A stretch of DNA of 19,001 bases. It comes from an uncultured Elusimicrobium sp. GTDB taxonomy: Bacteria; Elusimicrobiota; Elusimicrobia; Elusimicrobiales; Elusimicrobiaceae. Of this stretch, positions 218-14,933 are shown in pieces; within the stretch, counting starts at the first letter, position 1; each line of letters begins with the position of its first letter. Location: contig CAMGSK010000005.1 of assembly GCA_946061795.1 (NCBI GenBank), forward strand, positions 1 through 19,001. Reading direction: 5' to 3'. The notes under the pieces were generated by a model. The model was not told the origin of the DNA and searched no databases. It was given only the letters and a program-made list of their open reading frames with translations. The translations under genes were made by a program, and so were the position numbers.

Positions 218-245
218 TTGCATTGTTTTTTTTTTTTGATAAATT
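218..245 (+). promoter_or_regulatory. Pilin 1 promoter with T12 spacer
   Basis: The -35 is TTGCAT (218-223). The spacer of 16 nt is TG, twelve T (226-237) and GA. The -10 is TAAATT (240-245), preceded by TG as in extended -10 promoters. The expected transcript start, 7 nt after the last -10 base, is A252, the first base of the ATG. The same architecture recurs before pilins 2, 3 and 4, which is the main support for the call; the hexamers alone are weak. Confidence 0.65.
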
Positions 246-272
246 TTGCTTATGAACAAAATTTATCAAAAA
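233..272. promoter_or_regulatory. Palindrome over -10 box and start codon of pilin 1 (operator candidate)
   Basis: Perfect 16-nt arms TTTTTGATAAATTTTG (233-248) and CAAAATTTATCAAAAA (257-272) flank an 8-nt centre that contains the ATG (252-254). The left arm holds the -10 box. If transcription starts at 252 only the right arm is in the RNA, so a DNA role such as a binding site for a dimeric regulator is more likely than an RNA hairpin. Read-through RNA from upstream would instead form a stem with the ATG in its loop. Similar palindromes occur at pilins 2 and 4 but not 3. Confidence 0.6.
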
Positions 273-794
273 CCCTTCTCCGGCGAGAAAAACGCCGGAT
301 TTACGCTGATAGAGCTGCTGGTGGTCGTTTTAATCATCGGTATCCTGGCGGCCGTTGCGCTGCCGCAGTATCAAAAAGCGGTCGGGAAAGCCCGGCTGGC
401 TAATTTGAAAATTTTAGTTTCACGAATAGCCTCCAGCGCGGAGGAAGTGTATTTGGCCACCGGAGCCTATCCGGATTCTTTGGACGTACTGGCGGTTTCC
501 ATGCCGGCTCCTTCCAAAATAGAGAACGGCTATTGGCATTACGATTGGGGATATTGCTATTTGGAAAATAATGCGGCGGCAGGAGAAAATTTGTCTTGTG
601 CAAACACGCGTTCCGGTATTTTGTTTGCACAGCGTTTTGCTTTTGCCAGTCTTTATCCCGGTACAACTTCTTGCGGCGTCCTTCAGTCCTCTTCGTCAAT
701 AGAAAGAATGCGTGAAATCTGCCGCGCGGAAACAGGACAAAACTCTCATTCTTATAAGGATGAACATAAAGAAACTTATGTGTATCAAAAGTAG
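252..794 (+). CDS. Type IV pilin-like protein (pilin 1)
   Basis: Prepilin of 180 residues, probably a subunit of a type IV pilus or a related filament. The leader MNKIYQKPFSGEKNAG is cut after G16 by a prepilin peptidase in this family; the mature protein would begin F17 with the conserved Glu at position +5 (E21) and a hydrophobic N-terminal helix ending near ALPQYQKAV. The globular part is poorly conserved and has four cysteines, some of which could form the family's C-terminal disulfide. ATG 252 is chosen over TTG 246 because it fits the expected transcript start; there is no Shine-Dalgarno. It is an isolated gene, with no pilus assembly genes beside it. The first 24 codons are nearly identical to those of pilin 2, then the two diverge. 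A minor pilin or a secretion pseudopilin is an alternative. Confidence 0.9.
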   Translation: MNKIYQKPFSGEKNAGFTLIELLVVVLIIGILAAVALPQYQKAVGKARLANLKILVSRIASSAEEVYLATGAYPDSLDVLAVSMPAPSKIENGYWHYDWGYCYLENNAAAGENLSCANTRSGILFAQRFAFASLYPGTTSCGVLQSSSSIERMREICRAETGQNSHSYKDEHKETYVYQK

Positions 795-2894: not shown

Positions 2895-3004
2895 CCCCCT
2901 TGCATTGTTTTTTTTTTTTGATAAATTTTGTTTATGAACAAAATTTATCAAAAACCCTTCTCCGGCGAGAAAAACGCCGGATTTACGCTGATAGAGCTGC
3001 TGGT
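2895..3004 (+). repeat. Pilin head repeat, copy 2
   Basis: Matches 213-322 at 109 of 110 positions. The T12 run lies at 2908-2919. The single substitution T2931 lets the palindrome pair two bases further than in copy 1. Confidence 0.9.
2900..2927 (+). promoter_or_regulatory. Pilin 2 promoter with T12 spacer
   Basis: TTGCAT (2900-2905), a 16-nt spacer of TG, twelve T (2908-2919) and GA, then TAAATT (2922-2927). The expected transcript start is the A of ATG 2934. The palindrome arms 2915-2930 and 2939-2954 flank the start codon. Confidence 0.65.
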
Positions 3005-3389
3005 AGTGGTGTTAATCATCGGCATCTTGTCCAGTATCGCTCTGCCCCAGTACACCAAAGCGGTAGAAAAAGCGCGCGCGACGGAAGTGTGGGTAGAGGG
3101 GAGAGCTTTGTTGAATGCTCTGAGCGTTTATAAATTGGCTAACGACTATTATCCGGTCTCTTTGGAAGGGGTCGGTATAGAAGTCCCGGAGATGAAAAAT
3201 TTTTCGGTAAGATACCTGAACCGGCAAGGACAATCTACCCTGAGGTTCCAGGGAAAACAAAGTATGGCTAATTATATTTTTGAGTATGATTTGGATCGTA
3301 AGATGATAAGCTGCTTAGATAAGCAAAGTTCGGGACGATGCCCTTCTCTCATGCCTTGCTCTTCCGCATCTTGTCCTTTTCCCTCATAA
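2934..3389 (+). CDS. Type IV pilin-like protein (pilin 2)
   Basis: Prepilin of 151 residues with the same 16-residue leader as pilin 1 (MNKIYQKPFSGEKNAG), cleavage after G16, F17 at +1 and E21 at +5. The hydrophobic helix reads LLVVVLIIGILSSIALPQY. The mature body shares little with pilin 1 after the helix. The C terminus holds all four cysteines in a short tail (ISCLDKQSSGRCPSLMPCSSASC), a different layout from the other three pilins. ATG 2934 is chosen because it sits at the predicted transcript start; TTG 2928 would lie inside the promoter. It is monocistronic, with its own promoter and terminator, between mtaB and glmU. Confidence 0.9.
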   Translation: MNKIYQKPFSGEKNAGFTLIELLVVVLIIGILSSIALPQYTKAVEKARATEVWVEGRALLNALSVYKLANDYYPVSLEGVGIEVPEMKNFSVRYLNRQGQSTLRFQGKQSMANYIFEYDLDRKMISCLDKQSSGRCPSLMPCSSASCPFPS

Positions 3390-7277: not shown

Positions 7278-7305
7278 TTGACGCGTTTTTTTTTTTTGAT
7301 ACACT
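7278..7305 (+). promoter_or_regulatory. Pilin 3 promoter with T12 spacer
   Basis: TTGACG (7278-7283, five of six consensus), a 16-nt spacer of CG, twelve T (7286-7297) and GA, then TACACT (7300-7305) with upstream TG. Expected start near 7312. This is the best -35 of the four and lacks the palindrome, so it anchors the interpretation of the weaker copies. Confidence 0.75.
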
Positions 7306-7337
7306 GGCTTTTGCGTAAGGCGCGCAGGGAGGTGTAT

Positions 7338-7841
7338 ATGAAAAAGAAAAATGCGGGATTTACATTAATAGAGCTGTTGGTGGTTGTTTTGATTATTGGA
7401 ATTTTGGCCGCCGTTGCATTGCCGCAATATGAAAAAGCGGTGGAGAAAAGCAGAGTGGCGGAAGCAAATCTTATTTTAAAATCCTTGGCGGATGCCTGCA
7501 GCCGGTATTATTTGGCTAATCCAGATGGGGGCTGTTTTTGGGACACCATTGACATTTCTCTTAATCTCCCGGAAGCCGATTTCGGACCGGGAAATGTGGC
7601 AAATGCCCGGCAAGGTAAATATTTTTGGTATAGCTTGGAAACGTCCGGTGATGAAATTTTTGGCTGCCGGGGCAATTTTGACCAAGAAGAAGATTGGGAC
7701 TATTGTTTGTATTTTACTTATGGCAAAAATCCGGGAGAAGTTTTAACAAGATCTTGTCAGGGCAGAAATGAGCGCGGCCGTAAAATATGCGCTTCCGTTT
7801 GCGGACGAACGCCGGGTGGGGACGGAACGTGTATTTATTGA
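7338..7841 (+). CDS. Type IV pilin-like protein (pilin 3)
   Basis: Prepilin of 167 residues with a very short leader, MKKKNAG, cleavage after G7, F8 at +1 and E12 at +5, then LLVVVLIIGILAAVALPQYEKAVEKSR. The mature domain is rich in cysteine (eight), with a C-terminal cluster CASVCGRTPGGDGTC that could form disulfides. ATG 7338 is chosen because AGGGAGG (7326-7332) lies 5 nt upstream; the longer in-frame extension to 7215 would run through the pth terminator and the promoter. Unlike pilins 1 and 2 it has a conventional leader and ribosome site. Isolated, convergent with nagZ. Confidence 0.92.
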   Translation: MKKKNAGFTLIELLVVVLIIGILAAVALPQYEKAVEKSRVAEANLILKSLADACSRYYLANPDGGCFWDTIDISLNLPEADFGPGNVANARQGKYFWYSLETSGDEIFGCRGNFDQEEDWDYCLYFTYGKNPGEVLTRSCQGRNERGRKICASVCGRTPGGDGTCIY

Positions 7842-13694: not shown

Positions 13695-13722
13695 TTGATT
13701 TGTTTTTTTTTTTTGATAAATT
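13695..13722 (+). promoter_or_regulatory. Pilin 4 promoter with T12 spacer
   Basis: TTGATT (13695-13700), a 16-nt spacer of TG, twelve T (13703-13714) and GA, then TAAATT (13717-13722). Expected start near 13729, giving a leader of about 33 nt that carries AAAGAGG. Confidence 0.7.
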
Positions 13723-13750
13723 TGCTTTGTAAGCAAAATTTATCAAAAAA
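13709..13750. promoter_or_regulatory. Palindrome over pilin 4 -10 box (operator candidate)
   Basis: The left arm 13709-13727 and right arm 13731-13750 are complementary apart from one extra T, with a 3-nt centre. The core GATAAATTT / AAATTTATC is the same as at pilins 1 and 2, but here it ends before the ribosome site, so the coding part is free of it. Confidence 0.6.
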
Positions 13751-13761
13751 AGAGGTCCGTG

Positions 13762-14253
13762 ATGAAAAACGCGTTTGGGGCGGCTTTAAAGGGCTTTACA
13801 CTGATAGAACTTTTGGTGGTGGTACTGATTGTCGGCATATTGTCCGCCGTTGCGCTGCCGCAGTATAGAAATGCGGTTTCCAAAGCTCAGCTGGCGCAAG
13901 TGCTGCTGCAAGCCCGCAGTATTAGAAAAGACATTCAGATGTATCGTTTGGCAAACGGAACCTGGCCTAAAAATTTTGCGGACCTTACCGTGTGGGATTA
14001 TATAGACGAAAAAGGAGTGGCTCATATCGGCAAAGTGTCTTATACCAACCAAAACAGTGCATATATGACAAGCAATTCTCCGTTAATTTCGGCGAGTGAT
14101 TTCTTTCAATGTGCTATTTGGTTTACAGAGGCGGAGCCTCCTTTTTGTACTACTCGGATAGGACCCGCCGCCAAAATGTTGGAAGGGAGCGGCTGGAAAT
14201 GGCGGCACACAAATGAAGGAAGTAAAAGTACTTCTTATTATATGCCCCTGTAA
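13762..14253 (+). CDS. Type IV pilin-like protein (pilin 4)
   Basis: Prepilin of 163 residues. The leader MKNAFGAALKG is cut after G11; F12 is +1 and E16 is +5, followed by LLVVVLIVGILSAVALPQYRNAVSKAQLAQ. Two cysteines in the C-terminal half (FFQCAIWF and PPFCTTR) are placed like the classical disulfide loop, the most pilin-like layout of the four. ATG 13762 is preferred to GTG 13759 because AAAGAGG (13749-13755) is then at a normal distance. It stands alone between the recycling operon and the tRNA-Val array. Confidence 0.92.
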   Translation: MKNAFGAALKGFTLIELLVVVLIVGILSAVALPQYRNAVSKAQLAQVLLQARSIRKDIQMYRLANGTWPKNFADLTVWDYIDEKGVAHIGKVSYTNQNSAYMTSNSPLISASDFFQCAIWFTEAEPPFCTTRIGPAAKMLEGSGWKWRHTNEGSKSTSYYMPL

Positions 14254-14768: not shown

Positions 14769-14879
14769 CAAATCCTGCCGGACGCAAAGCAGTTTGCGTC
14801 CTTACTGCCAGTATCCAAACAAAAAACCTATGCACGGGACATAGGTTTCTTGTTTAAATGGTGGGCAGTACAGGATTTG
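14769..14879. repeat. tRNA-Val-end palindromic unit 3, fused to the tRNA gene
   Basis: CAAATCCTG (14769-14777), perfect hairpin GGACGCAAA (14780-14788) / TTTGCGTCC (14793-14801) with apex GCAG, TACTGCC, the tRNA terminator stem, and the genuine tRNA-Val 3' end (14859-14879). The stem sequence differs from unit 2 at most positions yet stays fully paired around the same GCAG apex. Confidence 0.75.
14815..14848 (-). terminator. Terminator of tRNA-Val
   Basis: AAACCTATG (14824-14832) pairs with CATAGGTTT (14840-14848), loop of 7 nt. Read on the minus strand the stem is followed by a T run (complement of 14821-14826). It starts 11 nt past the tRNA 3' end. Confidence 0.8.
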
Positions 14880-14933
14880 AACCTGTGACCTTCCGCGTGT
14901 GAGGCGGACGCGCTACCGCTGCGCCAACTGCCC
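14859..14933 (-). tRNA. tRNA-Val (anticodon CAC)
   Basis: 75 nt including an encoded CCA. The acceptor stem GGGCAGT pairs fully with ACTGCCC. The anticodon stem TCCGC / GCGGA holds the loop CTCACAC, so the anticodon is CAC, reading GUG. The T arm has ACAGG / CCTGT with loop TTCAAAT. The discriminator is A. A promoter and terminator are both visible, so it should be expressed. Its last 21 nt are the shared element of the downstream array. Confidence 0.95.

Follow-up and report, generated by a model that had tools for sequence, protein, structure and literature searches.

T-tract promoters ahead of type IV pilin-like genes in Elusimicrobiaceae: a lineage-specific family with a candidate palindromic operator

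In Neisseria meningitidis, the single gene porA carries a poly-G run between the -35 and -10 elements and its expression follows the length of that run, while in Mycoplasma hyorhinis the poly-A tract of the vlp genes is likewise positioned inside the promoter spacer. Extended -10 promoters of the sigma70 type, for their part, carry the motif TGn-TANNNT. According to PMC10502178, a poly-A tract is found in every promoter of the vlp family, each gene of which forms a separate transcript. The T-tract of Helicobacter pylori sabA, an adhesin gene, lies next to the -35 element, and its length, ranging from T5 to T22 between strains, affects transcription (PMC4081817). Gonococcal pilin variants, as described in PMC3547852, arise from silent copies by gene conversion.

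A further arrangement is described here from an uncultured Elusimicrobium sp. of a poorly known group of gut bacteria, in which four sites would represent copies of one family-specific pilin promoter of the sigma70 type, composed of a TTG -35, a T-tract as the spacer, and an extended -10 whose TG takes in the final T of that tract. The reading favoured, and considered likely though by no means secure, is that selection holds this structural spacer at 12 T and the hexamer spacing at 16 nt, with slippage going on and off-length alleles forming a minority. Roughly every second copy additionally bears a long palindrome whose centre coincides with the predicted +1, usually the ATG itself. The mRNA would then have no leader, and the palindrome would probably serve as operator for one regulator acting on many dispersed pilins together.

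The T-tract promoters of the window and its genome

The window, being the whole stretch of 19,001 nucleotides analysed, contains four T12 runs (226-237, 2908-2919, 7286-7297, and 13703-13714), and a scan of both strands returned these as its sole runs of nine or more T, in agreement with the initial annotation, which had seen no further T12. The order claimed there is present at all four pilins as TTGNNN-NG-T12-GA-TANNNT: promoters 1 to 4 read TTGCAT-TG, TTGCAT-TG, TTGACG-CG, and TTGATT-TG on the 5' side of the run and GA-TAAATT or GA-TACACT on the 3' side, flanks that give the claimed 16-nt spacer between the hexamers at every site. The GA does follow each run but is better taken as the G and the n of an extended -10, the last T and the G most likely forming the TG of TGn-TANNNT, which would explain why GATA succeeds the run so regularly. 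The TTG -35, the TGn-TANNNT, and a spacing within 15-19 nt, as used to recognise sigma70-type promoters, are all found in the T-tract promoters. Allowing up to three mismatches, the pattern matches four times in the window against 0.07 expected, and a chance origin was ruled out, given that none of 200 shuffles of the window reached four matches and the reversed-pattern controls yielded none. All four downstream open reading frames (ORFs) score above the Pfam N_methyl cut-off with a GFTLIE motif near the N-terminus; the "fimbriae" of the annotation should be termed type IV pilin-like proteins.

All of these features lie on the plus strand. Promoter 1 (218..245) consists of the -35 TTGCAT (218-223), TG, the T12 run, and the extended -10 TGA-TAAATT (237-245). 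Its palindrome (233..272) has 16-nt arms (233-248 and 257-272, 100% complementary), with the dyad centre at 252.5 coinciding with the predicted +1 and the ATG of pilin 1 (252..794; 180 aa, MNKIYQK...GFTLIELL; N_methyl 33.6 bits), which is predicted to be leaderless from the position of the -10. Promoter 2 (2900..2927; -35 TTGCAT, -10 TAAATT at 2922-2927) runs into a palindrome (2915..2954) with 18-nt arms (2915-2932 and 2937-2954, 100%), centred at 2934.5 on the ATG of pilin 2 (2934..3389; 151 aa; 33.2 bits), again predicted leaderless. At promoter 3 (7278..7305; -35 TTGACG, -10 TACACT at 7300-7305), a palindrome was sought at the class position and found absent; a Shine-Dalgarno (SD) sequence, AGGGAGG (7326-7332), precedes pilin 3 (7338..7841; 167 aa; 37.8 bits). 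Promoter 4 (13695..13722; -35 TTGATT, -10 TAAATT at 13717-13722) has a palindrome (13708..13751) with 16-nt arms (13708-13723 and 13736-13751, 100%) at the same offset from the -10 as the others, but within a non-coding leader, followed by the SD AGAGG (13751-13755) and pilin 4 (13762..14253; 163 aa; 27.2 bits). At promoters 1, 2, and 4, the end of the T run thereby enters a perfect inverted repeat. The window also contains a tRNA gene on the minus strand (14862-14933; Rfam RF00005, 73.5 bits). Locus L058 carries a pilin at the place orthologous to that of pilin 1, upstream of an RsmE-like gene, and the same place is pilin-free in L059, which is 97.8% identical to L058 over 5757 bp just downstream, and in L084; single pilins would thus come and go between housekeeping genes.

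The window's Elusimicrobiaceae MAG (G000; 1.30 Mb, 159 contigs, 85.6% complete) has 75 matches to the N_methyl pilin motif. The genome-wide search for the run proposed by the initial annotation returned 57 T8+-GATA sites, with none in the reversed control, and comprised 44 T12, four T13, four T11, one T14, two T9, and two T8 sites, both T9 sites being cut by contig ends and both T8 sites lacking a TTG in place. Of 50 distinct promoter-like sites with T9+, contig ends truncate six, and a pilin lies downstream of 41 of the 44 evaluable ones, the exceptions being a remnant, a signal-peptide-like protein (L037), and a 263-aa ORF (L043). In the genome pieces fetched from two further genomes, pilins follow 29/31 (G061) and 67/69 (G063) T9+ promoters, and two of the four exceptions resemble altered pilins (L330, L387). 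Counted from the 71 pilin starts checked in G000, a T-tract promoter is present at 47 and absent from 24; interrupted tracts (T6CT6 and T6CT5) also occur ahead of pilins, indicating that the homopolymer need not be strictly pure. Good support for the promoter model comes from its recurrence throughout the genome and the genus, with a pilin downstream in nearly every case; promoter activity and the +1 are inferred from sequence.

The non-pilin protein behind the T12 promoter of L037 begins MKHLLTGLLALFVFAPAVRA..., and the region of its promoter is repeated at three contig ends (L037, L017, and L046), suggestive of a repeated gene family. Contigs C24, C54, C60, C74, C96, C101, C107, C116, C117, and C125 of G000 end at or near a T-tract promoter; with so many breaks at these sites, the true copy number is probably above that counted.

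A structured leader of the form GTGCCGAGTGTTTGCC-stem-GGCARACYACGGCTGTT...AACAGCCGTTTTT often precedes pilins that lack a T-tract promoter, as at L391, L394, L396, L398-L401 (G040), L150 (G000), and L085. Folding nine such leaders with RNAalifold gave two helices in which 10 of 23 pairs show paired changes; T5 follows the second helix, in the manner of a terminator. Among the leader loci tested, Rfam returned no match at the gathering threshold, and relaxing E to 1 brought up nothing but implausible ones. This leader is possibly an attenuator or riboswitch of the pilins.

Occurrence within the family Elusimicrobiaceae

The phylum Elusimicrobiota has few cultured members, and Elusimicrobium minutum has a large pilin set. 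Across 61 congeneric genomes, the pilin expansion amounts to 22 to at least 112 matches per genome. In the open-licence literature, pilins of the phylum are mentioned and a promoter of this kind was not found; the available portions of PMC8809381 and PMC11257099 mention pilins in Elusimicrobiota and describe no T-tract promoter.

Searching related genomes for the run, a further proposal of the annotation, recovered the strict T12 form in 36 of the 61 congeners (731 sites, with up to 91 in one genome), together with other lengths in the same -35 context, namely T11 in 22 genomes (81 sites), T10 in 19 (38), and T13 in 22 (55). In this count, which covers T10-T13 only, T12 makes up 731/905 sites (~81%) and off-length runs ~19%. 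The loose pattern CTTGN{5,14}T6GATA, which also takes non-tract sites, matches 57/61 genomes. T12 promoters are found in 4/18 genomes of a second genus, bringing the family total to two of six sampled genera, and in 0/52 sampled genomes outside the family. The T-tract promoters are a real, lineage-specific, and pilin-associated family in architecture, repetition, pilin specificity, and length distribution. Placing one promoter design before dozens of scattered pilins, it offers many natural replicates for the study of spacer length, T-tract structure, and palindrome.

The 25 congeners without a strict T12 site have many pilins all the same (median 66 matches), so the expansion of pilins needs no T12, and the T12 count correlates weakly with pilin matches (Spearman 0.30 over 61 genomes, the highest pilin counts entering as at least 112). 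Among 20 pilin starts from three genomes devoid of strict T12, some displayed T-rich spacers (T11-G-TACCTT in L393 and T13-C-TACAAT in L409), and several had a terminator-bearing leader in place of the T-tract promoter.

Length of the T run

The equal run length noted by the annotation holds at the four window loci; elsewhere, 12 is the usual but not the invariable length, and the other lengths in G000 and the 61 congeners refute a constant 12 for all copies. The annotation's own alternative, a fixed structural spacer, fits better than phase variation in view of the T12 share across the genus and the alignments that follow. Sequence from two related species, 892 kb in total, contains 88 T12 runs, every one of them in promoter context, and 12 further T9+ runs. 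Between these two species, 21 promoter pairs comprised 17 T12/T12, two T12/T13, one T11/T12, and one T9/T12. Five were set aside for single-flank alignment or differing -10 regions, and the 16 that aligned on both sides of the run and agreed in -10 type gave 14 T12/T12, one T12/T13, and one T11/T12, the pairing having taken in only sites with a still recognisable run and so being biased toward retained tracts. T12 was kept in five of these 16 while the -35 flank had changed. In G011, where TTGACA-TCG-T11 is listed at five sites, an extra base separates the -35 from the shorter run, so that the spacing is again 16. In a sample blind to T length, T12 is present at 132/165 promoters, and the one near-identical pair (at least 95%) is T12/T12. 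We read these lengths as reflecting selection on spacing with slippage ongoing, and relatedness among copies, through duplication or gene conversion, could be part of the cause of the uniformity.

The annotation had put forward phase variation, whereby each T12 run slips, changes the -35/-10 spacing, and switches its pilin independently. Such a mechanism is described for Mycoplasma vlp. What stands of the proposal is that the homopolymer sits in the spacer at every copy and that its length does vary: T8-T14 occur, two of the 16 well-aligned pairs differ by one T, one locus has T13 in L058 and T12 in L060, and the tandem copies of L326, alike in their palindrome, have T13 and T12. The off-length promoters are not mainly dead loci, a possibility ruled out by sampling 30 loci per length class, in which intact pilins (at least 100 aa) follow 28/31 T12, 25/32 T11, 23/30 T10, and 23/30 T13 sites; this fits either spacing tolerance or switching. 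At one degenerate, pilin-less locus (L194/L208), two species differ, the one having T9 and the other T10. Against switching, T12 dominates across species and 14 of the 16 pairs agree, compared with the far wider T5-T22 between strains at sabA, a known T-tract switch (PMC4081817). The extended -10 may, moreover, render the promoter tolerant of spacing. Independent switching by slippage is accordingly judged unlikely. Similarly doubtful is its extension to a very large promoter phasome, in which dozens of dispersed pilins per 1.3-1.8 Mb gut Elusimicrobiaceae genome, each with a slippable T12 promoter and about half with a palindromic operator, would let a population display combinatorial coats of pilins governed by a single master regulator. 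Should the runs switch, the number of surface genes open to independent switching would be unusually large; should they not, the question becomes how a twelve-T run stays constant.

Less probable still is concerted evolution, in which recent duplication or gene conversion, rather than selection for T12, would make the promoter and the 5' end of the pilin uniform. Copies of the palindrome class do have about 80 nt in common, N-terminus included, and tandem pilins occur, for example at L171. T12 is, however, equally common in the palindrome class (67/82) and in the other promoter class, whose -10 boxes and leaders differ (65/83), of the sample blind to T length, and it persists where the -35 flank has changed and in another genus.

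The palindrome and comparison with known systems

The palindrome, of about 30-40 bp and unmentioned in the initial annotation, is found at 82/165 promoters in the sample blind to T length, at one fixed offset in 144/312 unique T8+-GNTA sites (a set including length-picked loci), and, by a looser criterion, at 117/223 sites against 3.7% in shuffles. Measured from the G of GATA, its dyad centre falls 14.5 nt downstream, at the predicted +1, with a start codon there in 138/144; the mRNA would thus be leaderless, and from this we infer leaderless translation in the palindrome class. Perfect arms with paired (compensatory) changes were found at six sites, of three kinds, some of which alter the encoded residue, and codons 3, 5, and 6 are near-invariant in the class (127/130, 130/130, and 128/130). 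Among the 38 palindromes with at most one mismatch in G000, 37 are at T8+-GATA sites and one starts 6 nt inside a contig, being cut; two further matches with two mismatches elsewhere were taken as chance. An independently spread repeat was rejected, the palindrome being confined to T-tract promoters in G000. A fixed position relative to the promoter and a symmetry kept by paired changes, the marks of a palindromic operator, are both present, and with its symmetry at the start point under selection the palindrome is probably such an operator. It offers a practical route towards identifying the regulator of this large pilin family. A search of Rfam with the window and the leaders gave no match bearing on promoter or palindrome.

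That the palindrome is instead an RNA hairpin with the start codon in its loop, transcribed from a promoter further upstream with the T-tract as part of the leader, is highly improbable. Compensatory changes are as compatible with a stem in RNA as with a dyad in DNA, but by eye the 57 aligned G000 sites share nothing ahead of the TTG, and the good -35/extended -10 overlaps the left arm, which a transcript from it would lack.

Taken as sigma70-type promoters with a T-tract spacer held at 12, these sites resemble vlp in having a homopolymer in the promoter of each member of a surface-protein family; switching has been demonstrated for vlp, whereas the Elusimicrobiaceae family is far larger, dispersed, and mostly of one length. 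As in porA, the homopolymer lies between -35 and -10, although porA is a single gene with a G run whose length expression tracks, in contrast to many genes with a T run of one dominant length. The T-tract in the promoter of a surface gene is shared with sabA, but the tract is here the spacer rather than adjoining the -35 and T12 dominates, which departs from a sabA-type rheostat. Many pilin copies per genome are likewise a feature of Neisseria pilE/pilS, where variants come from silent copies, as opposed to the T-tract promoter of its own at 47/71 G000 copies checked. With extended -10 sigma70 promoters, finally, the family has TGn-TANNNT in common, and it differs from these in general by a pure T spacer of near-constant length, set before dozens of paralogues.
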